Positions 15,680-64,000 of a DNA stretch of 64,000 nucleotides are shown here, piece after piece. Position numbers and translations under genes: made by a program. The notes under the pieces were generated by a model. The model saw nothing but the letters and a program-made list of their open reading frames with translations. It did not search any database and had not been told where the DNA came from. The first letter of the stretch is position 1. Every line of letters begins with the position of its first letter. This stretch comes from Croceicoccus sp. YJ47 (GTDB lineage: Bacteria > Pseudomonadota > Alphaproteobacteria > Sphingomonadales > Sphingomonadaceae), in contig NZ_CP067087.1 of NCBI RefSeq assembly GCF_016745095.1, positions 3,026,501 to 3,090,500 of the forward strand, in the 5' to 3' direction.

Positions 15680-15716
15680 GCATGTCGCCAACTGCCTTGG
15701 CGTTGGGCACCGATCG

Positions 15717-38427: not shown

Positions 38428-38456
38428 GGAGATAGGGATCCTTTGGTGATGGGGTG

Positions 38457-41809: not shown

Positions 41810-41813
41810 TGGT

Positions 41814-45376: not shown

Positions 45377-45387
45377 GGGAGTGCCCC

Positions 45388-45675: not shown

Positions 45676-45701
45676 GGCGACGCCGCCTTCCCTTGCCGCG
45701 C

Positions 45702-46031
45702 TCAGATGACCGCGGTCACAACCGAGGTGACGATCGGAACACCCGTGCCGACACCGATGCCGACACCCACCGGAACGGCGACCTGGCCGAGCGAAAAACG
45801 CCCGGATGCAAGACCGATCAGGCCGCCAGCGAGGCTGAGAACCGTGATGATCTTGCCGCCCGAGCCTTCCAGAAAGTCGGTGAACTTCGTGAGGGCAGGG
45901 GTGAAGGTCGTGTCAGCGCCGGCATAGGCGGCGCTCGCCGCAAGCGCCGCGATTGCGACCGGGATGGCAATGTTGAGGGTCTTGCCGAGACCCTTGACGC
46001 TGGCGGGCCGGGGGAGGGTGAGAGACTGCAT
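45702..46031 (-). CDS. traA: TraA, F-type pilin precursor
   Basis: 109 residues, the first gene of the tra operon. A long leader ending SAAYA is followed by mature pilin GADTTFTPALTKFTDFLEGS and two hydrophobic helices (IITVLSLAGGLIGLASG, GIGVGTGVPIVTSVVTAV). Cleavage is expected after AYA, perhaps by the operon's S26 peptidase. Mature pilin polymerises into the conjugative pilus. The promoter upstream carries a repressor-type operator and a LexA-type box. Confidence 0.9.
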   Translation of the reverse strand: MQSLTLPRPASVKGLGKTLNIAIPVAIAALAASAAYAGADTTFTPALTKFTDFLEGSGGKIITVLSLAGGLIGLASGRFSLGQVAVPVGVGIGVGTGVPIVTSVVTAVI

Positions 46032-47127: not shown

Positions 47128-47175
47128 TGTCGCTGTGATCTATTCGGTTAGGATTCCCCGCGCTAAGCTGTGCCA

Positions 47176-47868
47176 ATGGTTTACCGTTACCCCCTTGGCA
47201 ATTCTCTCCATCCCGAAGCCTTGAAAGAGAAGCAGCGCTCGCTGCGCGACGGCTTTCAGACCCCCTTGGCACTGCGCGTTCATCGCGCGCTATCCTGGCT
47301 TCGGCGTGCGGAAGCCGAGGATCAGGACCATGACGTCCGCTTCATTCTTCTCTGGATCGGGTTCAACGCGGCCTATGCCGGTGATGTTGAGGCTTCAGCC
47401 AGTAGCTCTGCACCGGAAGGCGAACGCGGACTGTTCCAGGCTTTCTTCTCGACCTTGGTGAAGTTCGACGCGCGCCACCGGGTCTACGATGCTGTTTGGC
47501 AGCGGTTCAGTCAGGAAATACGGCTGTTGCTGGACAATCGCTATGTCTATCACCCGTTCTGGCAGCACCAGAATGGGGCCGCTGGCCACGCGGATTGGGA
47601 GCAGAAGCTTGAACGCAGCCGAACCGCGATCAAGCATGCCTTGCGCGATCATGACACCGCTCGGATCCTCTCGATCTTGTTCGATCGGCTCTATGTCCTG
47701 AGGAACCAATTGGTACATGGCGGCGCAACCTGGAACAGCGATGTCAATCGCGATCAAGTGAGGGATGGCGCATCAATTCTGGGCTGCCTGCTGCCAATCT
47801 TCATCGATCTGATGATGGATAACCCGGAACACAGGTGGCCGATGCCGAACTATCCTGTGGTCGACTAA
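47176..47868 (+). CDS. HEPN-domain protein
   Basis: 230 residues. The C-terminal half is a helical domain with YVLRNQLVHGGATWNSDVNR, a typical HEPN Rx4H motif (R-N...H). The N-terminal half has RVHRALSWLRRAEAED and FILLWIGFNAAYAG. HEPN proteins are often metal-independent RNases used in toxin or defence systems. No obvious antitoxin gene follows; the neighbour is a convergent AAA+ gene. Ribosome site is weak at the ATG. Substrate is unknown and an Apea-like role is possible. Confidence 0.65.
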   Translation: MVYRYPLGNSLHPEALKEKQRSLRDGFQTPLALRVHRALSWLRRAEAEDQDHDVRFILLWIGFNAAYAGDVEASASSSAPEGERGLFQAFFSTLVKFDARHRVYDAVWQRFSQEIRLLLDNRYVYHPFWQHQNGAAGHADWEQKLERSRTAIKHALRDHDTARILSILFDRLYVLRNQLVHGGATWNSDVNRDQVRDGASILGCLLPIFIDLMMDNPEHRWPMPNYPVVD

Positions 47869-47889: not shown

Positions 47890-49965
47890 TTATGCTGCTT
47901 CGTCGAACCGCTCTGCTCGTCGGCATGGCGCAGTGTCCGAGTGGATGTGAAACCCCATCGTGCCCCTTGCGTGGTCGCCGCGTGCTTCAATCTCGTCACG
48001 CAGCCAGCGCACCAGGACAGCAGGATCTCGTTCCGCGAGTAGATTTGCGCGGTGCGCAACGACGGCAAAGTCGCCGGGGGTTTGGCCATGGTGGATGGGC
48101 CACTCCAAAGGCCAGTCGAGTCCGAATCTGGCTTTGAAAAGCTGGCTGGCCTGAGCGGGTGTCATGGCATTGAACGTGGCACGGATCGTGAAGCGGCGCT
48201 GTGTTGCCGGATCAAGGTTATCGGCCAGATTGGTCGTCGCGACGAAGGGAGTACGGAGGTGTTCGAGCTGCACCAGCATCTCGTTGACCTGGCTGACCTC
48301 CCAGCTCCTCTGACCGGCCTCGCGGCGATACAGGAAGCTGTCGACCTCGTCGATCAACAGCAGTGCGCCGCGCTCTGCCGCCCTGGCAAAGGCTTCGGCG
48401 ATGTTCTGTTCGGTCTCACCTACATAGGGGCTCATGAGGTCCGAGCACCGCCGCTCTTCGATCTCCAATCCCATGACCTGGGCGAGATGCCTTGCAAAAG
48501 CGGATTTGCCAGTACCTGAAGGCCCAGACAGCAGCAGGCTCCAACCGCGGTCTGGGGTGGCGGCAAGGCGCTCAGCAAGGCGAGACAAGTCCGTGTCCGC
48601 ACGCGACAGATTGGGGTCGTAGACTGAGCAGCCGGACGCTTCCGGCGTGCAGGACTGTCCCAGAACGCGCATGACGCTATGGATCGCAGTCTTCGCGACA
48701 TCTGCCCCGCCATTGGCAAGATGGGCCGCCTTCATACCTGCAGCCACCACGGCAGGGGGCGCTTTCAGGCAAGCAATATCACGCAGTTCAGCATCGCTGA
48801 GGTCAACCGATGCGGCTTCAGCGGACCTTTGTGCTACTCGCTCTCGCACAGCCAGGCGCGGGCGATCGAAGCCGATTGCAAGGGTCATGCGTCGCAGGAC
48901 GGCGGGGTCCAATCGCGAACGCTGGTTGACGATCCAGATCGTGGGAACCTGCGGTGCTTCGACGAGACGGTTAATCCATTGCTTGGAACTGCCTTTGCGC
49001 TCGCTCATCATCAGGACATCGTCCGCTTCATCGACAACGATGACCCTTTCGCGGTGATGACGGCACATCGCCCGCAAAATCATCAGATGATCGAGGCGCT
49101 CAGAGCGATCGGGCTCGTTGCCGAAATCGTCGCTCAAACCGGCAAAGATCGCGCCGCTTCCGGCCTCCGTGGCAAGGGTGCGCGCAAATTCGGTTTTGCC
49201 GGTGCCCGGCTCCCCGAACAGCAAGATGCTGACAGGCTCTTTGCTCGTGAGGACTTTGAGAGCGATGCTCCGCAGTGGATCGAGGTGCTCGAAGTCATCC
49301 CACAGCAATCCCCCTCGCTCCGGTTCGGGCATGAGCCAGCGCAGCATCTCGTCCCGGCTTTCCGCGTGGACCCGAATCAGGCGCCTGAGCAGGGGGCTCA
49401 GGCTGTATTCTCCGTCGCGGTCGTCATGCAGAAGGCGCGAGGAAAACAGCGGTGCACCGGGCATCAGTTTTCGGTCGACGGTGTTGCCGGAGAGACCGGA
49501 GAGTTGGGCGACAGCACTCGGGGTGAGGTTGCTGCATGAGATGGGTGCCCGGCGCACGAGCTCTCGCCAGCACTCAAATTTTCCCCAGCGGGCAAAGATG
49601 CTGAGAATGGTGACCTCGGCGGAATCGAGGCCGAACAGCTCGCCGACCCATGTAAACACGCTGTCCAATTGGGTTGGCGCGGCGCGCTTCGCTGTCAATT
49701 GCCGAGCGACAGCCCGCATTTCGGCCACTGAAGGCTTTTCCCGATTGGAGAGCTTATGCAAGGCAGCAACGGGCACCTCACGGTCAATCAGATCAATCAG
49801 ATCCTCGCCGCACCGCTTGACCTGATTGACACTCATCGCCTGAAGAACCCTTGCAGCAGCGTGAGCGAAATGCGTTGCTTCACCCTGCTCGCTCTGGCTG
49901 AATTCCGCCTGTGCTGCCCTTTGACGTGCCATCTTGCGCGCAATCTCCCTGAGTTCTGGTTCCAT
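47890..49965 (-). CDS. Tandem AAA+ ATPase (Cdc48/FtsH-like double domain)
   Basis: 691 residues with two AAA+ modules. First: SILLFGEPGTGKTEFARTLA (Walker A) and RVIVVDEADDVLMMSER (Walker B). Second: SLLLSGPSGTGKSAFARHLA, with LLLIDEVDSFLYRREAGQRS. The 230-residue N-terminal region is helical and unassigned. The second module has a Cdc48-like sensor region (FVATTNLADNLDPATQRRF). It probably unfolds or remodels a protein or nucleoprotein target. It is convergent with the HEPN gene and divergent from the WYL gene, so its partner is unclear. Confidence 0.75.
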   Translation of the reverse strand: MEPELREIARKMARQRAAQAEFSQSEQGEATHFAHAAARVLQAMSVNQVKRCGEDLIDLIDREVPVAALHKLSNREKPSVAEMRAVARQLTAKRAAPTQLDSVFTWVGELFGLDSAEVTILSIFARWGKFECWRELVRRAPISCSNLTPSAVAQLSGLSGNTVDRKLMPGAPLFSSRLLHDDRDGEYSLSPLLRRLIRVHAESRDEMLRWLMPEPERGGLLWDDFEHLDPLRSIALKVLTSKEPVSILLFGEPGTGKTEFARTLATEAGSGAIFAGLSDDFGNEPDRSERLDHLMILRAMCRHHRERVIVVDEADDVLMMSERKGSSKQWINRLVEAPQVPTIWIVNQRSRLDPAVLRRMTLAIGFDRPRLAVRERVAQRSAEAASVDLSDAELRDIACLKAPPAVVAAGMKAAHLANGGADVAKTAIHSVMRVLGQSCTPEASGCSVYDPNLSRADTDLSRLAERLAATPDRGWSLLLSGPSGTGKSAFARHLAQVMGLEIEERRCSDLMSPYVGETEQNIAEAFARAAERGALLLIDEVDSFLYRREAGQRSWEVSQVNEMLVQLEHLRTPFVATTNLADNLDPATQRRFTIRATFNAMTPAQASQLFKARFGLDWPLEWPIHHGQTPGDFAVVAHRANLLAERDPAVLVRWLRDEIEARGDHARGTMGFHIHSDTAPCRRAERFDEAA

Positions 49966-50069
49966 GTGGAGATTTCAAACACAGGCGTGCGACAAATATG
50001 GTCGTATAACTTGGGGGTTGTGCGTGATGCGACTTGCGCTTGCAGGACAGGCAGTTAGCAGTGGCTGTA

Positions 50070-51062
50070 ATGACAAAGCGCCTCAGTAACCTCGATCGTA
50101 CACTCAAACTCGTGCATGCGTTGACGCAAAGCATCGAAGGCTTGTCGCTCGATGAGATGGCTGCACTGCTTGGGGTGAACCGCCGAACTGTTGAGCGACT
50201 CCGCAACGTCATACTCATTCATTTCGACCTCGACGAAACCGTCGATGGGCGCATCAAACGATTCAGGATCAAGGATAGCCCGGGCCGGGCCTATGCTAGG
50301 CCAAACGCTGCCGAAGTCGCCGCGCTCCAGGCAGTGGTCGAAGCCGGGCGGATCGAGGGCACAGCCAACACCGAAGCGCTTGAGAAGCTGCTCTCCAAGA
50401 TCAAGATCGCCTTTGACAGCGCTGAGCGGCGCCGGTTGGACAATGACCTCGATCTGCTCACCCGGTTGCAGCGATCCCGCGTTGCGGCAGGGCCAGCCGT
50501 CATCGCTTCGCCCGAGGATCTGACAACAATCCAGTCAGCGATCCTTGCCGCCCATTGTGTGGATTTCGATTATCAGCCCGATTGGGCTGCTGCGCCAGCA
50601 TGGCGGCGGGTCGTCCCATACGGCCTGATCCATGGCCCCATTACCTATCTGCTTGGCAAAATGCCTGACCGGGATGATCCCCCATTCACCTTTCGGCTCG
50701 ATCGCATGAGCAACGTTCGAGATAGCGGGGTAGTCGGTTGCCCACCGGATGATTGGGATCTCGACGTCTGGATGTCCCGCAGCTTCGGCATCTGGCAAGA
50801 GGAAGATCACGATATTGTGCTGCGGGTCCGCCCGCATGCGGTCGAGCGAGCGCGGGCATGGAGGTTCCACCCGCATCAGCAATTCGAAGATGATGGCGAG
50901 GAGCTGCTGGTGCGATTTCGATCCGGAGGGCTCTTTGAGCTCGCCAATCACCTGTTTGGATGGGCGGGCGATTTGGTGATCGAAGGGCCAGCGGCATTGC
51001 AGGACACGATGGAGCAGCGGCTCGCGGCGGCTCAGGAAATGTTGCGACCGAAATTGTCGTAG
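50070..51062 (+). CDS. WYL-domain transcriptional regulator
   Basis: About 330 residues. An N-terminal winged helix (LSLDEMAALLGVNRRTVERL) is followed by a WYL domain (VDFDYQPDWAAAPAWRRVVP, VVPYGLIHGPITYLLGK) and a WCX-like C-terminus (FELANHLFGWAGDLVI). Such regulators sense ssDNA or nucleotides and control defence operons. It starts the rightward nuclease-helicase operon, 57 nt before the AddB-like gene. An earlier ATG at 50034 is possible. Confidence 0.82.
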   Translation: MTKRLSNLDRTLKLVHALTQSIEGLSLDEMAALLGVNRRTVERLRNVILIHFDLDETVDGRIKRFRIKDSPGRAYARPNAAEVAALQAVVEAGRIEGTANTEALEKLLSKIKIAFDSAERRRLDNDLDLLTRLQRSRVAAGPAVIASPEDLTTIQSAILAAHCVDFDYQPDWAAAPAWRRVVPYGLIHGPITYLLGKMPDRDDPPFTFRLDRMSNVRDSGVVGCPPDDWDLDVWMSRSFGIWQEEDHDIVLRVRPHAVERARAWRFHPHQQFEDDGEELLVRFRSGGLFELANHLFGWAGDLVIEGPAALQDTMEQRLAAAQEMLRPKLS

Positions 51063-51119
51063 CTGGTGGGCAGAGAACGTGTTGGGCGTGGCGTGACCGT
51101 CGTCGGGGGATTGGTTTGA

Positions 51120-53834
51120 ATGTTTGAGAACTGCCATCTGCGGATCGGCTACGCGCCATTTGTGAGCTGCATGCCGCTCAGTCCGCAGCTCCTGGCGAGC
51201 CTCTATGCCTTGCCTCATTGTGCCGAGATGCCGCTGCGCGAGGTTCTGGAAGCGCAGAGTAAGGATGCCCCATGGGCGGAGAGCTTTACTGTTGCCCCCG
51301 AACAGACCGCCACGGCTGTTGCCGCAATGCTGCGCCATCTGATGATGGCCACGCGGGACCTCCAGCCTGGATCGATTGCGACCGAGGCCCTGGCAACTGG
51401 CGGGAGGGCGCGCACCCATATCGAGGCGCTACGGGATCTTTGGCTTGGCAATCCAGCGATTGTTCCGTCCGAACTGGCGATATTGAAGGCATTCCTCGCC
51501 TGTGAGGCAGGCGATGCGTTGCAGTCGCTTCACGTGATCTGGGATCGGAATAGCACCCAGCTGACATCTCTCGAGCGCGCTGTGCTCGAGCATCTCGAAA
51601 GTCACCACGGCAAGCTGGACGAGGAAGATATTGATTACGTCCGCCTGATCTCGACCCCCAAGACGTGCCGAGCGCCTGAATCGATCCTCGCCGGGCATGT
51701 CCAAAGGCATCTGCTTGATCCGTCGGCGCCAACAGTACCCATGGACGACAGCCTCGCGGTTTGTTCCGTCCGCGATGCACTCACGGAATGCGAAGCCGCC
51801 GCCGCCATCATCCAGCACTGGCTTGCCGAAGATCGAACTCAGTTGGCGAGCGAGATCGGCATCATCCTGCCATCGGGGCCGGAGTATACGCATTACCTGT
51901 CGGAAGCCTTCGCGAATGCGGGCCTTACGGCATCATCGCTCCCTGCTGCGCCGGATCGCAGAAATGTCGGGGGTGAAGCGCTCCTGCATTTCCTGCAGTG
52001 CAGGCGGCGGCCTGCCCCCGCCATGGCGCTCGCCTCGCTATACTGTTCCCCCGTTCTGTGCTGGTCCCCGGATGTTGGATCGGCCTTGGCAAATGCGGTC
52101 ATGGCCTACGATTTTCAGCCCATATTGGTGCAAGACTTGAACGGAAAGCAGGCTGCGCTCTTCTCGCTGATCCGTTCAGCGTCACCTACGACGAACGGTC
52201 AGCTCAAGGAGCAAATCCGTTCCTTCCTGAGATTGCTCAGTGAGGACGAGTTGCTTGCGTCCGATGTCGCTGAGACGAAGCAGCTGGCTTCGCGCCTTTT
52301 GGCCGCCCTCGGCAACGCCAATGATGCCGCCGAAGCGGAACTTGAAAAGGCCATCCAATTGGCCGCAGCATACCAGGCACCGCCTTGCCCACGTGGACCT
52401 TACTACCTGGGCGGTATCTCGGTCATGTTGGCGCATGAAATGCCTAAGCGGCAGTTTCGCAAACTTCTCATCCTCGGCTTCAACGACGGTGCCTATCCGC
52501 CCCCGCCTTCGGGGAATCCGTTCTTCCTCGACAGCGAGGTTGAGGCGATCTCAAACACGATCGGCTTGCAGCTCCCGTCCCAGGCCAAGCAGCTCGATGC
52601 ATCGCTCAACCTTTTCGCGCGGCAGATTGGAGCCGCAAGTGACCAGGTCATATTCCTCCTGTCAGAACGCGATCGCAGCGGCAGCTTTCTCTCCGCCTCG
52701 TCAAGTTTGCCACTCATCTCCCGGCTCATCACCGGCATGGATGATCCTGAATCTTTGGTCGTACCGCTCACGCATAGTGAAGGTACGATCTGGGACAGGC
52801 TGGTGGCCTGGAAGCCGCGGCCTGTGGTCGACCCCCTCGAGCCCATCGAAGTGCCAACGCACTATGAGTTTGATCTTGATCTCCTGAGCCTGCGCAAGAA
52901 GGATGATGGTACCCCGAGAGCGCAGAGCCCGAGCCGGCTTGAAAAGCTCCTCATCAGCCCGCTGGCCTGGGTCTTGGCTGAACTCGGCGCCGAGCACGTC
53001 TCGTGGCAGCCGGAAGCGCTGGACGTCATGCTGCGCGGCTCGCTCGCCCACGAGGTGTTCGAACGTCTGTTCCCGCCGGGCAAGGACCACCCGTCCGACG
53101 AAGTGATCGAAGAAAAGGTGCCCGAGCTTCTTCTGGAACGCATTCGTGCGATTGCGCCGTTCCTGCAGACATCGGCCTGGGCTGTCGAACGCAACACGCT
53201 GGAGGCGGAAATCACCAAGTCCGCCAAGCACTGGTCGATGGTACTGAAATCCCTCGACGCCGAGATCGTGGGCAACGAATTCTGGCTCTCCGGGACCCTG
53301 TTTGACCATCCCGTACATGGCAAAGCGGATTGCCTGCTTCGCCTTCCCGATGGGCAGCCGATCGTCGTCGATTACAAAAAGAGCAGCTCCGGAACCCGCA
53401 GACAGCGCTTGCAGAAGGGCTGGGACCTGCAGGTCGATCTCTATCGGCGCATGACCGTTCGGATCGATGAGCGCAGTCACGAAGCTGTTGTTCGCATTGG
53501 CGAGACCTTGAACGGCTGGTTCAAGCAGCCGGCCGTCGCCTATCACACGCTCAACGACGGCAACGTCCTCCTCAATGGCATCGAGGTGTTTGACAGCACT
53601 GATGTCGAACTCGTCGCAGGTGACATCGCCGCGAATGCACTTGCGCTGATTTCGGCGAGATTCGACGCCCTCAAGGCTGGCCTACTCGAAACGAACACCA
53701 CGGCAGACGCCAAATTCTTCCAGAAAGCCGCCGCACTTGGCACTTACGCTCTCGAAGACAGTCCGTTGATCACCGCATTCATGCGTGACGACACCGCTCC
53801 TTCTGTAACCCTCCCGGACGAACTCGATGACTGA
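51120..53834 (+). CDS. AddB-like PD-(D/E)xK nuclease
   Basis: 904 residues. The C-terminal 300 residues contain a RecB/AddB-type nuclease: HGKADCLLRLPDGQPIVVDY then KKSSSG (Asp...Asp-x-Lys) and a QVDLYRRM helix. The N-terminal 600 residues have an AddB-like inactive helicase fold with LLILGFNDGAYPPPPSGNPF, and no Walker A was found by eye, so any motor activity must come from the partner. It overlaps the AddA-like gene by 8 nt. Chromosomal AddB is the closest known role model; here the gene belongs to a defence-like operon. Confidence 0.75.
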   Translation: MFENCHLRIGYAPFVSCMPLSPQLLASLYALPHCAEMPLREVLEAQSKDAPWAESFTVAPEQTATAVAAMLRHLMMATRDLQPGSIATEALATGGRARTHIEALRDLWLGNPAIVPSELAILKAFLACEAGDALQSLHVIWDRNSTQLTSLERAVLEHLESHHGKLDEEDIDYVRLISTPKTCRAPESILAGHVQRHLLDPSAPTVPMDDSLAVCSVRDALTECEAAAAIIQHWLAEDRTQLASEIGIILPSGPEYTHYLSEAFANAGLTASSLPAAPDRRNVGGEALLHFLQCRRRPAPAMALASLYCSPVLCWSPDVGSALANAVMAYDFQPILVQDLNGKQAALFSLIRSASPTTNGQLKEQIRSFLRLLSEDELLASDVAETKQLASRLLAALGNANDAAEAELEKAIQLAAAYQAPPCPRGPYYLGGISVMLAHEMPKRQFRKLLILGFNDGAYPPPPSGNPFFLDSEVEAISNTIGLQLPSQAKQLDASLNLFARQIGAASDQVIFLLSERDRSGSFLSASSSLPLISRLITGMDDPESLVVPLTHSEGTIWDRLVAWKPRPVVDPLEPIEVPTHYEFDLDLLSLRKKDDGTPRAQSPSRLEKLLISPLAWVLAELGAEHVSWQPEALDVMLRGSLAHEVFERLFPPGKDHPSDEVIEEKVPELLLERIRAIAPFLQTSAWAVERNTLEAEITKSAKHWSMVLKSLDAEIVGNEFWLSGTLFDHPVHGKADCLLRLPDGQPIVVDYKKSSSGTRRQRLQKGWDLQVDLYRRMTVRIDERSHEAVVRIGETLNGWFKQPAVAYHTLNDGNVLLNGIEVFDSTDVELVAGDIAANALALISARFDALKAGLLETNTTADAKFFQKAAALGTYALEDSPLITAFMRDDTAPSVTLPDELDD

Positions 53835-56800
53835 ACTTTCGATTGTGCCCGCAGGAGCCGGGGCTGGCAAAACACACCATATCCAGGAAACGCTCACCCA
53901 ATGGGTCAGGGACGGCAGGGTTCGCCCAGAGAAGATCCTCGCAGTCACCTTCACAGAAGCCGCCGCCGGGGAATTGCGGCAGCGGATCCGGGGCGCTCTG
54001 ATTGCCGACAGCAATCTGTCGGCAGCGCTGGCTGTCGAGAGAGCTTATGTCTCCACCATTCACGGGCTGGGGCGCCGATTGCTGATCGAGCACGCCTTCG
54101 CATCGGGTTCATCTCCGCAGCAGCGTCTGATCGCTGAAGACGAGCAGGACTTGCTGATCCGTCGCTCGATCGAAGAAAATCCTGCATTGAGCGAGCTTTC
54201 CCGAAACCTCGCAGCCCTTGGCTATCAAGGAAGCTTCTCCTCGGACGAAACCGCAGAGGACAGCTTCCGCAAGAAGTTGCTCGGCGTCATCGCCTTGCTG
54301 CGAACGCTCGGTCCGCGAGGCAGCGATCCGGCGATGGCCGACTTTGTCGAGGCATCCATCCGGACCGGATACGGTGCACCGATCGGCAAACCTGAGACTT
54401 TGGCTGCAGCGCTCCAGAAGGCTGTCGATGCCTTGCTTCAGGCCTTTCCTCGCTCGCTCGCTGACGATGCTGGTAGTGCCACCGCCAAGACAGCATTCCG
54501 CGAGAACTTCCGCGCTTTGAAGCAAGCTCAGCAGCTGCTCGCATCCGGCGGTACAGACTGGCGGCTGTGGCAGAAGCTGCGGGGCCTGCGTCTGTCGATG
54601 CGCGGCAGTCCGACCCCTGACGGCTACGACGATCATGCAGCTGCGGTCATGCTGGCAGCTGACAACCTGGTTTTTCACCCCGGACCGCTCAAGGATGCGG
54701 TTTCGCATGCGCGCGCTCTCGTCGAAGGCGCACAGTCGGCGATGACCGACTACGAGACCCGTAAACGCGAGCTCGGCGTCATCGACTTTAGCGACATGGT
54801 GACCAACGCTGCGCGGATACTCGATGAAAAGCCCGCCGTGCTTGGCGCCATCATGGACGAGGTCGACTGCGTCATTGTCGACGAGTTCCAGGATACCAAC
54901 CCGATCCAGTTCACCTTTCTCTGGGCGCTGGCCCGCAAGGCTAAGCGCGCATTGATCGTCGGCGACACCAAGCAGGCGATCATGGGCTTCCAGGGCGCAG
55001 ATCCGCGACTAACTGTCGCCCTTACGCAGCAATTTGAAACCAGCCCGCTCGACCGGAACTGGCGCTCCGATCCGCGCATCATGGATTTTGTGAACGCACT
55101 GGGGCCATGCCTTTTCGGTGAAGACTATACGGCGCTTGCCGCGCAGAATGCCTCAGGACACGAAACCGCTCTGGAGGTCATCGAGCTGGCCAACAAGCGC
55201 GGTGCCCGCTCCGGCGGAAAGCCCCAGCATTTCATCGCTGATCGTCTCCTTTCTCTGGTGACGGATGATCGGGTGACCATCGTGGACAGGCATTCCAAGG
55301 CCTTGCGCGATCTGGAGCCCCGAGACGTTGCCATCCTATGCCCGACGCACAGCCACTGCGCGAGCTATGCGGCCGCGCTGCGGGCCCTGGGCTTGCCGGT
55401 CCGCGTTGCGGAAGGAGGCTGGTGGCAGAGCAAGATCGTTCAGGCAGCATGCTTCGCGCTTCGTTTCGCCGTCGATCCGGCAGACAATCATGCAGCGATC
55501 TGCACGGCAACGCTCGGCCCGGGCGCAACGCCGCTCGGCGATGCTCTTGGCGCTCTGGCCCGCGACGGCCGGATCGAGACACCAGAACTCATGGCGTTGC
55601 AGGGACTTTGGGCTGACTCGCTTGCAACGCCCGTGGACAGACTGGTGCATCAGGTGATCCAGGTTGCCGGGCTACGGGACTGGTGCGACCGGCTCGACGA
55701 TCCCGCCCAAATGAGAGCGGACCTTCTTCGCTTCGAGGCTGAAGCGGCGGCATTCATGGATGCACACCGGGATATGCGTGAAGCCTCCGGTTTCTATGGC
55801 CAGAGTGCCAACGTTTTCCTTGGCTGGCTCGAAAACAAGGTCGGCCTGAAGGGTGAGGATCTACGCCCGAACCCCGCTGGCGCCGAGGCCGATGGCATCG
55901 AGATTGTAACCTGGCACGCCTCGAAGGGGCGGGAGTGGCCGGTCGTGGTCGTTTGCGGCCTCGATCACAAACTCGACCCGCGCGCCGGAACTTTCAGCAC
56001 AAAGTTTCCTGGTTTCGACGATCTCGATCATGTGATCGAACAGGCGACACTTGCCTATGCGCCTGACTTTGCTGCTCCCGAAGCGACAGCTCGTTTTCTA
56101 AATGGACTGTATCCCGAGTGCGAGGAAACAGCGCGCCGATTGCTTTACGTCGCTCTGACCCGTGCGCGTAATCGCCTGATCATCGAATGGCCGCAGGACG
56201 ACGACAAGGTTGAGCCGCCACTACCGATCACGGCGCGCCGTCTTTTGAACGACGGCTGTGGCATCAAGTTGCAGGGCAATCAGATCACTGTCGGTTCGGC
56301 GCACTTCCCGTCGCGCATGACGATTTGTGGCAAGGAGATCCCAGCGTCGTTCGACGGGGAAGGCAGAGTTCGCATTGAGAGGAATGATCGCGAACCGAGG
56401 TTTGCCATTGAAAGGCGAGCTGTCGGCCAGCTTGCCCCGGTCATCAGTCCTTCCCAGACAATCGCCACCACTCGGCCGCTGCCTTTGCAAATTGAGACCC
56501 GGCCGATTTCAGCGGGTGTCCGGCTCACCGGATCGGATCTCGCGCTGGCAACGGATAAGGGGACTGCGGTCCACGAAGCCTTGCGGATTTTGCTGTGCAG
56601 GCCGGATCTGCGGCACCGGGTGGGCCAGCATTGCCGGATCGCCGAGGCTGAAGTCGAGCTGCTCGCGCAACAGGCGCAAGCTCTTCGGCAGACACTCAAT
56701 GAGCTTGGTTATTCGCGCCTACATGTCGAACAACCAATCGAAATCGAACTGGCAGACGGTGGACGTCAGAGCATCATAGTCGACCTGATCGCTGAGAGCA

Positions 56801-57039
56801 CGAATGGCTTCATGATCGTGGATCACAAGAGTGGGCTGATTGCAGACCATACAGCTCGATTTGCAACATATTGGCCTCAGCTAGCGGCTTACATCGCTGC
56901 CGTTGAGTTTAAGGCTGGCAAGGCCGTCCAAAGCGTTGCTGTGTTCTGGACCGAGACTGGTGAGTTGACATTAGGACAAGTGTTGTGTGGCACTAACGAA
57001 CTCAGCGATCTTACTACGCCTGACCGGGGGATGCGATGA
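53827..57039 (+). CDS. AddA/UvrD-like helicase-nuclease
   Basis: 1070 residues. SF1A helicase motifs: I PAGAGAGKTHHIQ, II CVIVDEFQDTNPIQ, III LIVGDTKQAIMGFQGA, IV LDRNWRSDPRIMDFV, V EIVTWHASKGREWPVVVV, VI RRLLYVALTRARNRLIIE. The C-terminal nuclease has IIVDLIAESTNGFMIVDHKS (Asp...Asp-x-Lys) and YWPQLAAYIAAVE. It would unwind DNA and cut it together with the AddB-like protein, as AddAB does for double-strand ends. It overlaps the next gene (ATGA). It is not the usual chromosomal addA, being embedded with PLD and SNF2 genes. Confidence 0.82.
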   Translation: MTELSIVPAGAGAGKTHHIQETLTQWVRDGRVRPEKILAVTFTEAAAGELRQRIRGALIADSNLSAALAVERAYVSTIHGLGRRLLIEHAFASGSSPQQRLIAEDEQDLLIRRSIEENPALSELSRNLAALGYQGSFSSDETAEDSFRKKLLGVIALLRTLGPRGSDPAMADFVEASIRTGYGAPIGKPETLAAALQKAVDALLQAFPRSLADDAGSATAKTAFRENFRALKQAQQLLASGGTDWRLWQKLRGLRLSMRGSPTPDGYDDHAAAVMLAADNLVFHPGPLKDAVSHARALVEGAQSAMTDYETRKRELGVIDFSDMVTNAARILDEKPAVLGAIMDEVDCVIVDEFQDTNPIQFTFLWALARKAKRALIVGDTKQAIMGFQGADPRLTVALTQQFETSPLDRNWRSDPRIMDFVNALGPCLFGEDYTALAAQNASGHETALEVIELANKRGARSGGKPQHFIADRLLSLVTDDRVTIVDRHSKALRDLEPRDVAILCPTHSHCASYAAALRALGLPVRVAEGGWWQSKIVQAACFALRFAVDPADNHAAICTATLGPGATPLGDALGALARDGRIETPELMALQGLWADSLATPVDRLVHQVIQVAGLRDWCDRLDDPAQMRADLLRFEAEAAAFMDAHRDMREASGFYGQSANVFLGWLENKVGLKGEDLRPNPAGAEADGIEIVTWHASKGREWPVVVVCGLDHKLDPRAGTFSTKFPGFDDLDHVIEQATLAYAPDFAAPEATARFLNGLYPECEETARRLLYVALTRARNRLIIEWPQDDDKVEPPLPITARRLLNDGCGIKLQGNQITVGSAHFPSRMTICGKEIPASFDGEGRVRIERNDREPRFAIERRAVGQLAPVISPSQTIATTRPLPLQIETRPISAGVRLTGSDLALATDKGTAVHEALRILLCRPDLRHRVGQHCRIAEAEVELLAQQAQALRQTLNELGYSRLHVEQPIEIELADGGRQSIIVDLIAESTNGFMIVDHKSGLIADHTARFATYWPQLAAYIAAVEFKAGKAVQSVAVFWTETGELTLGQVLCGTNELSDLTTPDRGMR

Positions 57040-58208
57040 GCGTCCAGTGGGGTACGTTTGCTCCCGACTCAGCTCCGTCATGCCGTCGCCTGCAGACGCT
57101 CGGACTGACGGTCGCAATCCGACACTACAACGACCGATCCGTCCCAGGGCTAGGTGGGCTGAGCTTCGGCATGCCCATCGCGTGGTCGCTACTCGGCGTC
57201 TGGTTAGCTGAGGAGATTGGCAATCAGGTTCGGCTACTCTCGTGTGCCAATGCGATCGAAGCTGCGATCATGGTCCAAGCATTGAAGGAAGGGCGCAAGA
57301 GAGCGCGAGGCCACCGTAAGCTTACAGGTGTCTCTGATACAAGCTTCAAAGCCTTGAGCGCACGCGGGGCATATGTGACACAGCCCTATCGGATGGGGAC
57401 TGTCGAACCGCTGCTGCGATTGGGACTCGTTGTTGGCACGAGTCAGCGGTTTAATATGTATCGTCTCGCGCCGTCGGGTGAACGAATTCTACAAAGCCTG
57501 AAGGGAGAACAGAACAAATTGAGAGCTTGGGCCACCGGCTCAAAGCTGACGCGACTCGCGCGGTTGGCTCCCGACGTCCCCTTACCGACTGGTTCTGCCA
57601 AGCTCCTCGAGAGACAATTGCGTGATTATGGTGATGCGCATCGGCGCAGAGCCCTTCTTGATCTTTCAGATGAAGTTCTGCGCCAGACAAACATTGAGAG
57701 CACGGAGCCCCCTGCAGGGATCGAGCAACCTCACTGGAATGACATTCGCAGCGGTGTGGCTTTGATCCAGCTTCGCGACGCTGCCCTAGACGTCATTTCC
57801 GCGATTGAAAACCGACTTACGTCAAGCCGACAAGCTGGCCTGACTGTGCACCAGGCAGCGCAGGCGGCTAGCAGCTCAATGGAGCTAACGGCAGTTCGGG
57901 CGAGTACAATGCTCGCTCGCGATGACACCAGCCCGGGTCAGCTAGCCCACGAATTTGCTCGAGCTTGCCGCTCACCGGCGGAGGACGCCGTAGCTGAGCT
58001 CGCGAAGCGCGACGGAACTGTGATCAGGCTGTTGCCGAATGGGCAGGTGGGCCTCGGCCCAGCTGGTGGACAGCTCGATACGAGAATGGACGACGAGGTA
58101 GAACAAGAAGGGCTTGGGCAGAACGATACGGTTATTCCTGAGCTTCCCAGGATCACCAATCTGTACGCGCTCAAGCGCGACCTGCAGCTCAGCATGGCGG
58201 ATCATTGA
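57036..58208 (+). CDS. Unknown winged-helix protein of the defence operon (390 aa)
   Basis: A soluble protein, not assignable by eye. Features: FGMPIAWSLLGVWLAEEIGN near the N-terminus, a winged-helix-like segment ARGAYVTQPYRMGTVEPLLR then LGLVVGTSQRFNMYRLAPSG, and a helical C-terminus (AALDVISAIENRLTSSRQAG). It overlaps the AddA-like gene and directly abuts the PLD gene (TGAGTG). Its place in the middle of the operon suggests a DNA-binding or assembly subunit of the complex. No other clue. Confidence 0.6.
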   Translation: MSVQWGTFAPDSAPSCRRLQTLGLTVAIRHYNDRSVPGLGGLSFGMPIAWSLLGVWLAEEIGNQVRLLSCANAIEAAIMVQALKEGRKRARGHRKLTGVSDTSFKALSARGAYVTQPYRMGTVEPLLRLGLVVGTSQRFNMYRLAPSGERILQSLKGEQNKLRAWATGSKLTRLARLAPDVPLPTGSAKLLERQLRDYGDAHRRRALLDLSDEVLRQTNIESTEPPAGIEQPHWNDIRSGVALIQLRDAALDVISAIENRLTSSRQAGLTVHQAAQAASSSMELTAVRASTMLARDDTSPGQLAHEFARACRSPAEDAVAELAKRDGTVIRLLPNGQVGLGPAGGQLDTRMDDEVEQEGLGQNDTVIPELPRITNLYALKRDLQLSMADH

Positions 58209-60032
58209 GTGGAACGAACAACTATACTCAGTTGCTTCGCGCCTCCTGAAGGGTTCGAGGGCAATTTCGGATGGGTTTGCGGCTTCACCGCGAATGCTAC
58301 AGTCTTGGAGGAGATGGCCGATCGGTTCACCTCCGGCGTGCGGCGGCGGCGCTCGTCACTCGCAGTCTTTTTGCATCCCACATCTTTCCACTATCCGGTC
58401 CTGCGCGGTGTCTCGGTTCCTTTCTGGCGTCCAAGTGCCAACAGGTCATTCAACCTGCTCCACGCAAAGGTGGCGCTGCTCCATTTTGTGGGTCAGCAAG
58501 GCTCTCGGCTGCGCCTAATCGTATCTACCGGGAATTGGACCTACGATCCAATGTCGACCAGCCTCGACATGTTCTGGATCGTCGAATGGGATGAATCTAC
58601 TCCCGATCGCCAAGCTGCCTCCGACATCAGAGCCGCAGCGGCGATGTTTGTATGGCTTAGGCAGCTGTTTGATACGTCGGCTCTCGAGGCCGATTGGGGC
58701 CATGGAACACCTGAAAACGGACTGCAACGGGCTGTGAATCGCCTGCCTGCCAAGCGCCTTCCTCCCAGCCGTTTTTTGGACACGCGCAAGGATTCGTTGC
58801 AGGAGCAAGTTTTGAAAGGGCTCGCCCAGGCACCACGCAAGCGCAACCGCGTGCTCATGGGATCAGGGTACTTCGAAACGGGAGAGCAGGCCGATAGCGG
58901 CGTGTTGTCCGAATTTGTTCGACAGCTCTCGGAGCGCGGATTTGCCACCGCTAGGCCGCGCGTCGATGTCATACTGAACCACGACGCCTGTCAGGGGCTC
59001 GCCGCGCAGCGTCCGGAATTGGAGAAGCTTGAGTGGCAGTTCCGGCGCCCGTTTAGTCGCGACCTGCCGGGAGCTAAGCTCCACGCTAAGTTCATTTTCA
59101 GCGCGGGAGGATCGCAGAACTGCTCCAACCCGTGGTGCTACATCGGGTCAGGAAACCTTAGTCGCGTCGGTTTTACGCGTAGCGTCCGGAACGGCGGCAA
59201 TCTGGAAGCAGGTGTCCTCTTCTTTCCTGAGGAACCTCTGACCTGGCAGGGAGATGGGGAAACGACCTTGTCCCGCCGGCTGCCAATCGATTTGAACAGC
59301 ACGGTAGCGGTCGATGACCTTAAAGACGGGGATCCCTACCAAGCGCCGGCACCTGCCATCGCTCCCCCTCCGGTCAGTTACCTCGTATGGCGCAATGCCA
59401 CTTTGCAGCTGCCCGATGGAGCGCCAAGCGACACTACCGTTACTGTTCGTGTCGGCAGCGAGTGGCTGCCCCTGCCACTTTCGATGCCTGATCCCCGCCC
59501 GACGGCCGTACTCGGCCCGTCGGGCGCGGAAGTCCCAATCCTCACCGACGGAGGTTTCATTCTTCCTCCCCCGGCGCCGAAACGAGTCGAGGATGTCCTG
59601 CACGAGCTTGCGATTTTTCCGCAAAGAACACCCCGTGAGCGCGATCGTGACCTCGCGCCCGACGATGCGGGTGATGAGGATTTTCCCAGTCCTGAGAATG
59701 CAGCGGCCAACTACCCGATAAGGCGGGCTATGGGCCTGGTCGCTAAAGTTACCGAATACCAGGGTGTGCGAACTCCTGCTGAGTGGGAGCGATGGACCAA
59801 CCGGCTGGATGAGCTCCTCGAAGCGGTAAGCGAACCTGAAGGCGAAATGATCGCTGCCCTGCGCCAGTGCGGAATTGACCCCCTCTCCGCGCTGCTTGAG
59901 CCCATGTTCCAGCCAGCCGGCCTGTCGGCGGAGCAGCGAGATCGGCTCGTTCCGGTGATCGCGCGAATCCGCAAAAGCTGGCAGCTGGAACAATGCGCGT
60001 CGCTCGTACCGGTCAAAGGCAAAACTGCATGA
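58209..60032 (+). CDS. Phospholipase D/Tdp1-like nuclease
   Basis: 607 residues from a GTG that follows the upstream stop directly. Two HxK motifs in a PLD superfamily pattern: NLLHAKVALLHF followed by STGNWTYDP, and AKLHAKFIFSAGG followed by IGSGNLSRVGF. The spacing and HxK...GSGN form fit Tdp1-like HKN motifs. PLD-type nucleases of defence systems cut nucleic acid without a metal. The C-terminal 250 residues are a separate region rich in Pro. It overlaps the SNF2 gene (ATGA). Confidence 0.8.
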   Translation: MERTTILSCFAPPEGFEGNFGWVCGFTANATVLEEMADRFTSGVRRRRSSLAVFLHPTSFHYPVLRGVSVPFWRPSANRSFNLLHAKVALLHFVGQQGSRLRLIVSTGNWTYDPMSTSLDMFWIVEWDESTPDRQAASDIRAAAAMFVWLRQLFDTSALEADWGHGTPENGLQRAVNRLPAKRLPPSRFLDTRKDSLQEQVLKGLAQAPRKRNRVLMGSGYFETGEQADSGVLSEFVRQLSERGFATARPRVDVILNHDACQGLAAQRPELEKLEWQFRRPFSRDLPGAKLHAKFIFSAGGSQNCSNPWCYIGSGNLSRVGFTRSVRNGGNLEAGVLFFPEEPLTWQGDGETTLSRRLPIDLNSTVAVDDLKDGDPYQAPAPAIAPPPVSYLVWRNATLQLPDGAPSDTTVTVRVGSEWLPLPLSMPDPRPTAVLGPSGAEVPILTDGGFILPPPAPKRVEDVLHELAIFPQRTPRERDRDLAPDDAGDEDFPSPENAAANYPIRRAMGLVAKVTEYQGVRTPAEWERWTNRLDELLEAVSEPEGEMIAALRQCGIDPLSALLEPMFQPAGLSAEQRDRLVPVIARIRKSWQLEQCASLVPVKGKTA

Positions 60033-62599
60033 CGCTACAATGGACTGACGTTGCCGACCGCCTCGAGGAGACCGCCCTTGGTGATACCTTAGCCGATGGA
60101 ACGATACTGCAAGATGGTCAGCGCGCGGCGCTCCTGGCCATCTGCGAGCGACTGCGCGGTGGTCAACGGGCGCTATTACTCGCCGACGAAGTGGGGATGG
60201 GCAAAACTCTCATCGCCGCTGCGCTGATCAAAGCCGTGCAACGCAGCGGCGGGCGAGCCGCGATCATCATACCGCCAGGCCTTGGAGCTCAGTGGCAGGC
60301 TGAGCTGAGACGATTTGACACAGCCGATCACACGTTATCTCCGCTGCGGTCCTATTGGGGCTTCATTCAGGCATATACCCGCGCAGAACACCTTTCAGAT
60401 CGACAGCTTTTGCGCGAACGACGTGAGCGAGAGTTGGCGGATCGGCGCCTGCAGCTGCAGCTGCCTTCCGGGACCTGGGCACAGGAGCCTCTGCTATTGC
60501 TGTCGCACACCCTTGGCCGTCTCGTGCAAACGGAAGGTACTCAGACCGAGTATCAGGCGCTACTTGACGCTATCTTGAAGGTGCACGCAGGGACGCGCGC
60601 TTATCGTCGCGATCCGGCCAAAGCAGCCTATCAGAACGTTGCTCGCGCTGCCGCAGAGCGTATCCTCGCCGGGCTTTCCTCTCGCGAGCAGCGGCAGCTT
60701 TGCGAAGGTCTTACGCATCGAGCACCCGACCTTCGCAAGGTTGTCTGCTTTGCCATGGGACGCGCTCTGGGCAGGTTTGATCTCATCGTCATCGACGAAG
60801 CTCACAAGACTCGCGGCGCCGAGAGCTCCTTGTCACGCGTATTGGACGCACTGGTTTGGAAGTCAGAGACTGCGTTCCACCTAGGCATGACCGCCACGCC
60901 GGTTGAACTCGACCCCGAGCAATGGACAAACACGCTCGCTCGGTTGAGTGTTCGAAGCGAACATCTGACGGAAATGGCTGATGCGATCCAGCGTTACGAT
61001 CGCGAGGTCCAGAACATTCAGGCTGACGAGGCCCTTACTTCGGATTTGGTCAACCGATATGCTGAAGCTTCCCGCATTTTACATGCTGCACTTGCGCCGT
61101 GGGTGTTGCGGCGAGACAAGCGAGAGGACCACCTGCTCCAGCGTTTCGGGAAAGTTTGTGGCTCGCATCGCGAGATTGTTCCCATCGAAGTGCCGATCTC
61201 GAAAATGCCCCTCGCATGGCGGCGGATCTTCCTCGCCAGCGAAGCGCTCTCCCAACTGCACGAAGAGCGCTTGAGTCCTCAAGATCGGCGGATGCGGCTG
61301 TCGTTGCCCAGCGGGCGCTATCTGCGTGACGTGGCTGAGGAAATGGCTCGATTGCAGGCATTTGACGACGAGATAATGCAGGATGATTCGCCAGGCGAGC
61401 CGATCGGTCCCTGGCAACGCCTTAGCCGCGAACTGCTTGGTGAGGAGGGCATCAGTCTGTTTGATCATCCGGCGGTAATCCGTACGGCTGAGGAAATCGA
61501 GCATGCCGTACGCGCGGGGCACAAGGTTCTCGTATTTGGCAGGTTCATCAAACCGATGCGCGCTCTCACATTCTTGCTCGACGCGCGTGAGATGGTTCGA
61601 CGCCTCTGTGCCGAAGACAAAGTAGAAAACAGATGGCCTCAGGCTGCGCTTGGCGAGCTCGACAGTGAACGAGAAGCTGCGCTGAAGGTCGCGCTGAGCG
61701 ACCCAGCCGTGAACACGCGCGGGCTCGATCGCAAGGCCGTGGATGAGCGCCTTCGCGAGCGCGCCAGCCGCTTTGAGGCAGCGCGCCGAGCCAATCTCGA
61801 AGCCATGCGCCGAGAACTTGTCGGCGACCCGGCAGCGGCCGACCTCAGAGAGTTCTGGCTTGCAGACGCTGGACGACGCGATGGCAACTCTGCGCTCCTA
61901 GCTGCGCTTGAAGATCAGCGCAGTTTCTCCGAGCGACATCAACCTTGGAGCAAAGACGCTTTGTTGGCGGCTTTTCGCTCCCTCGTTGGAGAAGTTACGA
62001 TTGCGGACCAGGTGGACGATTCTGAAATTAACGTGAAGGCGCGGCTGGCGGAGCATCTGTTAGACTTCGCGGGCCGTGAAGGACACTTCGCCCGTTTAAT
62101 GTATGGCGATACAGCACCACAAACGCGGCGGCTCTTGCAGGCAGCGTTCAATCGCGCAGGAAGCTGGCCGCAAGTTCTCGTGGCGCAATCACTCGTAGGA
62201 CGAGAGGGCCTCAATCTCCACCAGGCGTGCCGAATGGTTGTGCTATTTCACCTTGAGTGGAACCCGGCCCACGTCGAGCAGCAAATTGGCCGTGTCGACC
62301 GGATCGACAGTAAATGGGCACGCGAAGCGGATGCCTATTTGGGCACAGAAAATACTTCGAGCCCACCACCAAAAATTATAATTCGTCCGGTCATTATATC
62401 TGGTTCCTATGATGACCATCATTGGTCCATACTCAAGCGCAGATGGGATAGCATGCGCGCACAGCTTAACGGCGATATCATATCAGAGGCTCAGGTTGAT
62501 GCATCGGAACCAGAGCGGCAGGCACTGTTTGACAAGATCAGAACTGCAACGCCTACCTTCGCGCCACCTCCGCTGGCGAACCGCCAAAAGAGAGTGTGA
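60029..62599 (+). CDS. SNF2-family DNA-dependent ATPase (helicase)
   Basis: 856 residues. SNF2 motifs: I LADEVGMGKTLIAAALI, II LIVIDEAHKTRGAESS, III HLGMTATPVE, and helicase-C VLVFGRFIKPMRALTFLLD with VVLFHLEWNPAHVEQQIGRV then DRID. Such motors translocate along double-stranded DNA and remodel bound proteins. The start at 60029 overlaps the PLD stop. It resembles DrmD of DISARM in being an SNF2 motor next to a PLD gene, but no DrmA, DrmB or methylase is present. Confidence 0.82.
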   Translation: MTLQWTDVADRLEETALGDTLADGTILQDGQRAALLAICERLRGGQRALLLADEVGMGKTLIAAALIKAVQRSGGRAAIIIPPGLGAQWQAELRRFDTADHTLSPLRSYWGFIQAYTRAEHLSDRQLLRERRERELADRRLQLQLPSGTWAQEPLLLLSHTLGRLVQTEGTQTEYQALLDAILKVHAGTRAYRRDPAKAAYQNVARAAAERILAGLSSREQRQLCEGLTHRAPDLRKVVCFAMGRALGRFDLIVIDEAHKTRGAESSLSRVLDALVWKSETAFHLGMTATPVELDPEQWTNTLARLSVRSEHLTEMADAIQRYDREVQNIQADEALTSDLVNRYAEASRILHAALAPWVLRRDKREDHLLQRFGKVCGSHREIVPIEVPISKMPLAWRRIFLASEALSQLHEERLSPQDRRMRLSLPSGRYLRDVAEEMARLQAFDDEIMQDDSPGEPIGPWQRLSRELLGEEGISLFDHPAVIRTAEEIEHAVRAGHKVLVFGRFIKPMRALTFLLDAREMVRRLCAEDKVENRWPQAALGELDSEREAALKVALSDPAVNTRGLDRKAVDERLRERASRFEAARRANLEAMRRELVGDPAAADLREFWLADAGRRDGNSALLAALEDQRSFSERHQPWSKDALLAAFRSLVGEVTIADQVDDSEINVKARLAEHLLDFAGREGHFARLMYGDTAPQTRRLLQAAFNRAGSWPQVLVAQSLVGREGLNLHQACRMVVLFHLEWNPAHVEQQIGRVDRIDSKWAREADAYLGTENTSSPPPKIIIRPVIISGSYDDHHWSILKRRWDSMRAQLNGDIISEAQVDASEPERQALFDKIRTATPTFAPPPLANRQKRV

Positions 62600-62725
62600 G
62601 AATGCTACTATCTCGATCAACCTTCTAAAGGCCGGTCTGCTTGAGCGTCTGGTGGCGTACCTTCATCGACTTTGACGGGGGCGCGGAATGAATGATGCGA
62701 GGATCTGGATGAAGGAGCATCCGGC

Positions 62726-63313
62726 GTGAGGATTCAAGGCCAGCTAATCACCGCTGTCGATCTGGCCATTGCGAGTGGAATGGATCCGAAGCGCTTTCGA
62801 GTTGCCCTACGAGCCGCAAGTCTTGATTGGCATCCGAACAACGGACGTTGGGAGGTCGTGCGAGGGAGCGATGAGCACCAAGACATGGAACTGGTCATGG
62901 CGCAGCTAGGCGGAGCAAGTGGCAGGCTGCGATCGACGTCACAGGCTGCAAACGGCACGTCCGAAGTCGCAATTCGCGACGAGCAGTACGTACTGGATCT
63001 CTGCGACGCAGTTCTCGGGCTGAAGGCCGTCCGGCAGCACTGCTTTGAGTTTCTTACCGGCGATCCAGATCGGCGTGGTTACCGAAAGCCGCTGCCTGTC
63101 GACGGATTTTATCCTACTCTTGGCCTGGTCGTGGAATATCATGAGCGCCAACACCGCGAACGTGTCGGCTTCTTCGACGATAAGCCAACGGTTTCCGGCA
63201 TTCCTCGCGGCGAACAACGCCGACGATATGATGAGCGCCGCGCCGATTTTCTGCCGAGGCATGGCTACAGTTTAGTCGTTCTCGAGGTAGATGAACCCAC
63301 ATTCTCCAAGTAA
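62726..63313 (+). CDS. Vsr/DUF559-like nuclease
   Basis: 195 residues from a GTG behind AAGGAG. The C-terminal part resembles the Vsr/DUF559 PD-(D/E)xK family: KPLPVDGFYPTLGLVVEYHE (catalytic-type Asp and Glu) and RQHRERVGFF, then GEQRRRYDERRADFL and SLVVLEV. The N-terminal 80 residues may be a helix-turn-helix part. It follows SNF2 by 126 bp and probably completes the operon. The C-terminus PTFSK lies close to the IS1380 element and may have been altered by it. Confidence 0.65.
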   Translation: MRIQGQLITAVDLAIASGMDPKRFRVALRAASLDWHPNNGRWEVVRGSDEHQDMELVMAQLGGASGRLRSTSQAANGTSEVAIRDEQYVLDLCDAVLGLKAVRQHCFEFLTGDPDRRGYRKPLPVDGFYPTLGLVVEYHERQHRERVGFFDDKPTVSGIPRGEQRRRYDERRADFLPRHGYSLVVLEVDEPTFSK

Positions 63314-63389: not shown

Positions 63390-64000
63390 ATGGATCACCT
63401 GGAGGGTGCGGGCTTGGCGCGGGGAGATCGGGTTGATTTCGACCGCCGTGTGCGTCTGGAGTTCCGTGGTGCGCAGATCAGTTCAGACGGTGGCCTGCTG
63501 GTGATGCGCGAGCTTGATGACGTGCTCGGCCTGTCCAATCTGGCGTCGGAGGCGCTGCGAGACAGCCGCACCGGGAAGAACACGCTCCATCGGCTTGACG
63601 GATTGTTCCGGCAATCGGTGTTCGGACGACTGGCCGGATACGAGGATGTGAACGATGCCGACCGCTTGGCCCTCGATCCCGTGATGCGTCAGGTCGTTGG
63701 CGGCAGGGCCGTCGAGGCGCAAGCTGCTTCGGCATCGCAGATGGGACGGTTCGAGACCGAGACGCTGGCTCTGGCCGCGAACCGGGCGGCGCTGGCCGAT
63801 CTGAACGGCCAATGGATCGACCGGTTTCATGACCGCAACGGGTTGAAATACATCGTGCTGGACATGGACAGCTCGGTCAGCCCCACCCACGGCGATCAGG
63901 AAGGTGCTGCCTGGAACGGGCATTTCGACTGCACCTGCTATCACCCCATCTTCTTGTTCAACCAGTTTGGCATGCTGGAGCGCTGCGCCCTGCGTAACGG
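63390..64000 (+). CDS. IS1380-family transposase (5' part, runs off the window)
   Basis: Open frame of at least 203 codons from an ATG. The start RRVRLEFRGAQISSDGGLLV, then LNGQWIDRF and VLDMDSSVSPTHGDQEGAAW, match the IS1380 DDE transposases (first Asp in DMDSS). It bounds the defence operon on the right. The left terminal repeat could not be identified; the gap 63314-63389 must contain it. Confidence 0.88.
   Translation, partial: MDHLEGAGLARGDRVDFDRRVRLEFRGAQISSDGGLLVMRELDDVLGLSNLASEALRDSRTGKNTLHRLDGLFRQSVFGRLAGYEDVNDADRLALDPVMRQVVGGRAVEAQAASASQMGRFETETLALAANRAALADLNGQWIDRFHDRNGLKYIVLDMDSSVSPTHGDQEGAAWNGHFDCTCYHPIFLFNQFGMLERCALRN

Follow-up and report, generated by a model that had tools for sequence, protein, structure and literature searches.

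Several described systems share parts with the locus analysed here. In DISARM, DrmC is a PLD protein and DrmD is an SNF2 protein. AddAB-type machines are known as repair enzymes. PLD proteins of the Tdp1 (HKN) type have HxK...N twice and lack the Asp of HKD; besides Tdp1 itself, the restriction enzyme BfiI is of this form. The nearest known layout, which the original prediction for this DNA had not considered, is that of Azaca, where a protein of about 400 aa (ZacA, which is DUF6361 in Pfam), a PLD protein (ZacB) and an SNF2-type motor (ZacC) are encoded by three genes that resemble those in one half of our locus in size and order. As far as passages of the respective papers describe them, an AddB repeat-array candidate has an AddB-like PD-(D/E)xK protein (PMC10910872), ARMADA and other YprA-helicase systems have a YprA helicase and a PglX-like methyltransferase (PMC12458937), and the passages on BREX backup effectors (PMC12839542) hold no description of the AddAB-core set reported here.

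The claim of the original prediction that the locus matches no known system stands, as no named system fitted it in profile searches that included Pfam and PADLOC, and its wHTH-PLD-SNF2 core is without a name in the PADLOC 2023 and Pfam 2025 libraries. In searches of the open-access PMC literature no description of the operon was found among the titles and abstract openings listed, and subscription papers or preprints may hold one. In our view this is probably a mobile locus for defence by DNA degradation, in which two modules cooperate.

Layout of the locus and the genes of Module A

The window, which is the whole stretch of 64,000 nucleotides that was analysed, is part of a 3.35 Mb single-contig genome. 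The seven reading frames of the operon first proposed (50070..63313) are all on the + strand as had been stated, and the domain calls made for them (WYL, AddB-type PD-(D/E)xK, UvrD/AddA-type helicase-nuclease, PLD and SNF2) hold in profile searches. Where five junctions had been said to overlap or abut, we found four of six, namely AddB/AddA, AddA/wHTH, wHTH/PLD and PLD/SNF2, the gaps between WYL and AddB and between SNF2 and the Vsr-like gene being 57 bp and 126 bp, respectively. The genes had also been taken as a single seven-gene unit; instead there are two separable modules, each of which also occurs alone, whose identities are only loosely correlated with each other and whose cassettes are swapped, and two linked genes lie just beyond the earlier range. 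Module A is the divergent tandem-AAA+ ATPase, WYL, AddB-like and AddA-like genes, often with a HEPN-like gene, and Module B, the conserved core, is the wHTH, PLD and SNF2 genes. The features are as follows.

47170..47868, + strand: HEPN-like protein, 232 aa, Module A accessory (homologues near AddAB or the core; RNQxxH)
47890..49965, - strand: tandem AAA+ ATPase, 691 aa, Module A, divergent from WYL (Pfam AAA 1.4e-36)
49989..50005, no strand: palindrome GCGACAANNNTGGTCGY, possible WYL operator, located in the AAA/WYL promoter region (at the corresponding position in L045 and L158)
50070..51062, + strand: WYL-WCX regulator, Module A (Pfam WYL 3.1e-12, WCX 6.6e-10)
51120..53834, + strand: AddB-like protein with PD-(D/E)xK nuclease, Module A (PDDEXK_1 7.9e-13)
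53827..57039, + strand: AddA-like UvrD helicase-nuclease, Module A (UvrD-helicase 1.4e-48, PDDEXK_1 3.4e-5)
57036..58208, + strand: wHTH protein, 390 aa, unnamed family, Module B (AlphaFold2 pLDDT 89.5)
58209..60032, + strand: PLD-superfamily protein with two HxK...N motifs, Module B (invariant motif residues; Pfam)
60029..62599, + strand: SNF2 ATPase of RapA/BrxHII/DrmD type, Module B (profile matches; RapA best PDB match); the frame spans 59993-62599 and the ATG at 60029 is better placed
62726..63313, + strand: Vsr-like gene, probably a passenger outside the system (no homologue in 87 loci)

Homologues of the AAA+ protein adjoin WYL and either AddAB or the core in L004, L005 and L008-L010 (L numbers denote individual loci) and also in L045 (82%) and L158 (62%), and because AAA and WYL recur at related loci we assign the minus-strand AAA+ gene to the system. 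The palindrome at the AAA/WYL promoters is retained in L045 and L158 as well as in the window, and its search pattern was built from these same three sequences; at 2 mismatches the pattern shows no enrichment in the window, with 3 copies found versus 2.37 expected. The AddB-like protein has a PDB match to Bacillus AddB (E 0.0011), and its nuclease residues G640, H644, D737, D751, K753, Q771 and Y775 are invariant in 28 of 28 sequences; in AddA, 29 sequences retain the Walker A motif together with D999, K1001, Q1018 and Y1022. Homologues of the HEPN-like protein lie near AddAB in L009, L161 and L162 and near the core in L049 and L055, and all six aligned sequences, that of the window included, have the RNQxxH motif; at E 0.01 this protein gave no Pfam match, RiboL-PSP-HEPN being matched only at E 0.066. 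At L005:6551-8116 and in nine other loci there is a 522-aa protein with a DSP-type phosphatase region and an ADP-ribosylglycohydrolase domain, which in several alphaproteobacterial loci sits between WYL and AddB and which is not in the window.

The Vsr-like gene had originally been included as the last member. The ORFs of the 87 related loci include no homologue of it, its 11 matches in the plasmid collection are all actinobacterial, and it was therefore rejected as a member of the system and is probably a passenger; in Pfam it gave no match other than a weak one to MoeA_C. The frame beside it at 63390-64000, which is cut by the window end, presumably resembles an IS1380-type transposase. Elsewhere in the window, F-type conjugation genes, named from plasmid annotation as traC, traU, traN, traF, traB, traK, traE and traL, lie at 32000-46000, and their closest plasmid relatives come mostly from sphingomonads. 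Two genes with type II methyltransferase matches and a type II restriction-enzyme match are at 21283-26317, where the GC content is lower (0.54-0.57), and this is likely a separate RM system. Two long + strand genes at 13283-18644 gave mad8/HerA-like and RecD-like/typeIV_RecD matches.

The wHTH-PLD-SNF2 core and its relatives

A tblastn search with the wHTH protein led to seven plasmids, and a scan with the PLD alignment of one genome per species in 84,980 species gave 126 relatives, the best 80 of which were taken; the loci found through the PLD or the wHTH protein are the 87 related loci. When the same gene order was looked for in these, co-occurrence was confirmed, with wHTH, PLD and SNF2 in order on one strand in 84 of the 87 loci (which include the best 80 of the 126 relatives), and the three exceptions, L048, L075 and L076, are all at contig ends. 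The hosts, as named in record titles, include Alpha-, Beta- and Gammaproteobacteria, relatives of Desulfovibrio and Desulfosarcina, Planctomycetota, Nitrospirota and Acidobacteriales, some of them being MAGs, and at 70% PLD identity the window and the 87 loci form 58 clusters. In L004 (Paracoccus versutus) wHTH and PLD are fused in one frame of 1004 aa. In L007 (15209-19518) the PLD gene is split by about 2.3 kb with two minus-strand frames, probably an insertion. AAA, WYL, AddA and AddB all went undetected in 40 of the 87 loci, some of which are incomplete, and it is for this reason that we regard the Module B core as a unit of its own. No relatives of the PLD protein were found in phage records, and in IMG/VR just one contig has one.

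No Pfam family was found at E 0.01 in any of 34 wHTH members, in PADLOC there were two marginal matches alone (E 0.025 and 0.046, one member each), and the wHTH profile gave nothing significant against PDB (best E 0.19). The AlphaFold2 model of this protein is confident (pLDDT 89.5) and mostly helical, and in it residues 117-166 or so, which run helix-strand-strand-helix, would fit a winged helix. The winged-helix call first made for the fourth protein is thus a tentative one.

In the PLD protein H85, K87, N109, H292, K294, N316 and E333 are invariant in 86 of 86 sequences and the Asp of the classic HKD motif is missing, position 91 being L, M or I in these 86 sequences. With H, K and N invariant throughout, the protein is of the Tdp1 (HKN) type. 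Because this motif is present in both Tdp1 and BfiI it leaves undecided whether the protein cuts DNA or removes adducts, and its chemistry is compatible with adduct repair too. In Pfam, 24 of 38 PLD members matched PLDc_2 and 14 matched Tyr-DNA_phospho. The PLD profile had no match in PDB, and its AlphaFold2 model is confident (pLDDT 87.8). In the SNF2 protein, the best PDB match of which is RapA, the sixteen motif residues checked show 99-100% conservation across 83 sequences. As far as aligned residues can tell, the nuclease and motor sites of both modules are intact.

Pairing and exchange of the two modules

AddA and AddB are present with the core in 27 of the 87 loci, and in 26 of the 87 AddA is directly upstream of wHTH. 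Six more loci (L015, L022, L042, L046, L053 and L064) have AddA-type matches only; three of these are at locus ends and three are low-scoring and may be other UvrD helicases. In a sample of 385 alphaproteobacterial genomes wHTH was found in one, and AddB at E 1e-40 in one, which is the window itself, and since each is this rare their co-location is not due to chance. Both modules were also found alone. A Novosphingobium humi plasmid has Module A in the same divergent arrangement and without the core, its AAA, WYL, AddB and AddA proteins being 62, 76, 63 and 70% identical, respectively, to those of the window. Four more plasmids have AddAB without wHTH or PLD matches, and two of these pairs are near TIR genes; overall, AddB led to 10 plasmids, of which 5 have the core. 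The TIR-domain genes near core-less AddAB pairs are at L159:10724-11434 and L160:17859-20441, and L160 also carries a 124-aa SNF2-like fragment.

When pairwise protein identities were compared for the window and 26 loci, broken genes being represented by their best-scoring piece, the correlations within modules were 0.994 for PLD-SNF2, 0.988 for PLD-wHTH, 0.990 for SNF2-wHTH and 0.993 for AddA-AddB, and between modules they were 0.574-0.615. wHTH-PLD-SNF2 is a conserved three-gene unit whose members diverge together, and AddB-AddA is a second such unit. What this means for a single pair of loci can be seen in the window and L045, where AAA, WYL, AddB and AddA are 82, 89, 82 and 85% identical but wHTH, PLD and SNF2 only 31, 31 and 34%. 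In Stagnihabitans L013 and Tabrizicola L079 the DNA is 96.7% identical over 8,533 bp until 126 bp before the AddA stop codon; after this break a 225-bp stretch alone matches until downstream homology resumes (78%, 774 bp), and the proteins of the two cassettes are 29-36% identical. Cassette swaps were found between L013 and L079, L005 and L032, L006 and L009, the window and L045, and L013 and L082, and in the five two-cassette pairs compared the long match stops 46-142 bp before the AddA stop. As the long match ends before the AddA stop, the AddA tail travels with the cassette. The C-terminal tails of AddA in L013, L079, L082 and L005 resemble those of loci with the same cassette and not those of loci with the same AddA body. 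A docking role for this tail is a lead, and the pattern also follows from the recombination point alone. The same gene set is found in other orders in L004, L012 and L163. These data show that AddAB and the core were repeatedly paired, re-paired and reordered, and that cassettes are replaced near the 3' end of AddA.

The finding of both modules alone and the loose correlation of their divergence would also be expected if AddAB and wHTH-PLD-SNF2 were two unrelated and independent defence units that merely share islands. This does not sit well with the position of AddA directly upstream of wHTH in more than a quarter of the loci, with the set staying together after the rearrangements just described, or with swaps that fall at the same point each time, and we hold such independence to be rather unlikely. 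Two cooperating modules is the reading that we carry forward.

Genomic context, proposed role and comparison with known systems

In nine loci the AddAB-core set is directly downstream of brxL, starting 124 bp after it, and BREX-1 is annotated in L006; since all nine are in one 70% PLD cluster they count as about one event. In this cluster L031 has AddAB and the core without detected BREX, and L017 has the core without AddAB. Unlike in these loci, no BREX gene was found among the scanned proteins of the window operon. For other neighbours, 122 of 124 chosen proteins next to the core in 50 AddAB-free representatives were compared with PADLOC at E 1e-20, the control being 116 proteins from 20 stretches of 15 other genomes that were not host-matched. 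Families matched, counted as families and not as distinct proteins, were 34 for the 122 neighbours versus 4 for the 116 controls, and among the 25 neighbour families listed are BrxL, RmrA, RmrT, LmuA, Hhe, Avs1a, a DRT protein and LeoA. The defence role proposed earlier fits this genomic context, and it is because of the BREX embedding and the defence neighbours that we favour defence.

A different role for the same proteins is as a set that serves the repair or maintenance of mobile elements, in which PLD, SNF2 and AddAB would mend damaged or protein-blocked DNA of the element or its host and have no immune role. Such a set would account for the Tdp1-type HKN motifs, for the Tyr-DNA_phospho matches of 14 of the 38 PLD members, for the ancestry of AddAB and for the RapA-like motor. 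It is hard to reconcile with the rare and patchy occurrence and the cassette swapping, with BREX and Azaca as partners and defence genes as neighbours, and with a host that has a canonical addA, and we find it unlikely. The operon pair does have an AddA helicase-nuclease and an AddB-type nuclease as in AddAB/RecBCD, with nuclease residues kept, but its AddA is far below the equivalog cut-off (135 versus 860.75 bits for addA_alphas), and the host's own addA elsewhere in the genome is canonical alphaproteobacterial with 960 bits. Because of the latter the operon AddAB is not the host's repair pair, and with scores below both the AddA and AddB equivalog cut-offs canonical repair AddAB was rejected.

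For a defence locus that degrades DNA, we propose that the WYL protein would control expression from the palindrome before it and that the wHTH protein would bind DNA and tether the SNF2 motor and the PLD protein to each other. The motor would travel on invading DNA or strip its proteins and the PLD protein would cut or open this DNA, upon which the AddAB-like helicase-nuclease would load on the exposed ends and degrade them. As a fail-safe, the HEPN protein may act as an RNase. No gene for self-protection or modification was found in either module.

As to DISARM, with which the operon shares PLD and SNF2 functions, its SNF2 protein matches DrmD at 81 bits but this is far under the cut-off of 610, and neither DrmB nor a methyltransferase was matched among the ten scanned proteins. 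The original prediction had DISARM share only PLD and SNF2 genes with the operon; with no DrmB, no methyltransferase with DrmA, and SNF2 giving weak DrmA/DrmD matches only, DISARM was rejected. The repeat-array candidate, as the passages of PMC10910872 describe it, resembles the operon in its AddB-like PD-(D/E)xK protein and differs in its array, as no tandem array is present at the window, L045, L158 or L162 and no interspersed array was found among the direct repeats listed for these (for L045 and L158 the five largest families); with no array among the repeats listed it was rejected. Membership of ARMADA or of other YprA-helicase systems, as far as passages of PMC12458937 define them, is not supported, no methyltransferase having been found in the operon.

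Azaca has to be weighed more closely. With the ZacB model at E 0.001 there were matches in 58 of 398 genomes of the phylum, and four loci scored >390 bits. In one of these four, L123, an AddB/AddA pair of the same families (500 and 1268 bits) directly precedes ZacA with a TGATG overlap, as such a pair precedes wHTH in the window; in the other three no AddAB was found in the 14 kb read. Full-length AddB in the 398-genome sample is limited to the window and the L123 genome, the matches in 20 other genomes being partial with at most 73 bits. The AAA and wHTH models had no match in the four Azaca loci.

Module B could itself be a divergent Azaca, its wHTH protein a far-diverged ZacA and the whole an Azaca subtype. 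The three genes are laid out in the same way, all 34 PLD members match ZacB weakly and all 32 SNF2 members match ZacC, and the AddAB partner is common to one of the four Azaca loci. Yet ZacA and wHTH have no profile similarity (hhalign probability 0.1), the similarity of ZacB to the window-type PLD is marginal (hhalign probability 37, first motif only) and the window PLD scores 27.5 bits versus >390 bits for genuine ZacB; the window SNF2 scores 57 bits with ZacC, and PDC-M27C, BrxHI, DrmD and DpdE score higher, the SNF2 proteins matching several other families equally or better. We think an Azaca subtype quite unlikely, and because the wHTH protein does not match ZacA (DUF6361) Module B is placed outside Azaca. 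A third layout is found at L125:3267-9467, where an unrelated 434-aa protein precedes a PLD-like gene (16 bits with the window model) and an SNF2 gene (157 bits with the window model); profile comparison of wHTH with this first protein was negative, and this layout suggests that it is in their first gene that such systems vary.

For a mobile defence locus of two cooperating modules, a speculative extension is chassis-and-cartridge immunity, in which AAA-WYL-AddAB would serve as the regulated chassis that degrades ends, and interchangeable cartridges of three genes, be they one of several wHTH-PLD-SNF2 types or Azaca, would select the target DNA and make its ends ready. Taken to its boldest, the idea is that the SNF2 and Tdp1-like proteins would remove or unlink the protein guards of DNA ends, for example the terminal proteins of phages and conjugative relaxases, so that the AddAB-like nuclease could load on the stripped ends, which would be immunity by end-deprotection. 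The swaps on 96.7%-identical backbones are ready natural comparisons for what sets the target. What this comparison with known systems defines is an unnamed and widespread three-gene nuclease-motor core. Its layout and that of Azaca are, by sequence comparison, parallel, and an AddAB-type machine can be the partner common to both PLD-SNF2 layouts, this exchangeable pairing being the surprising part.
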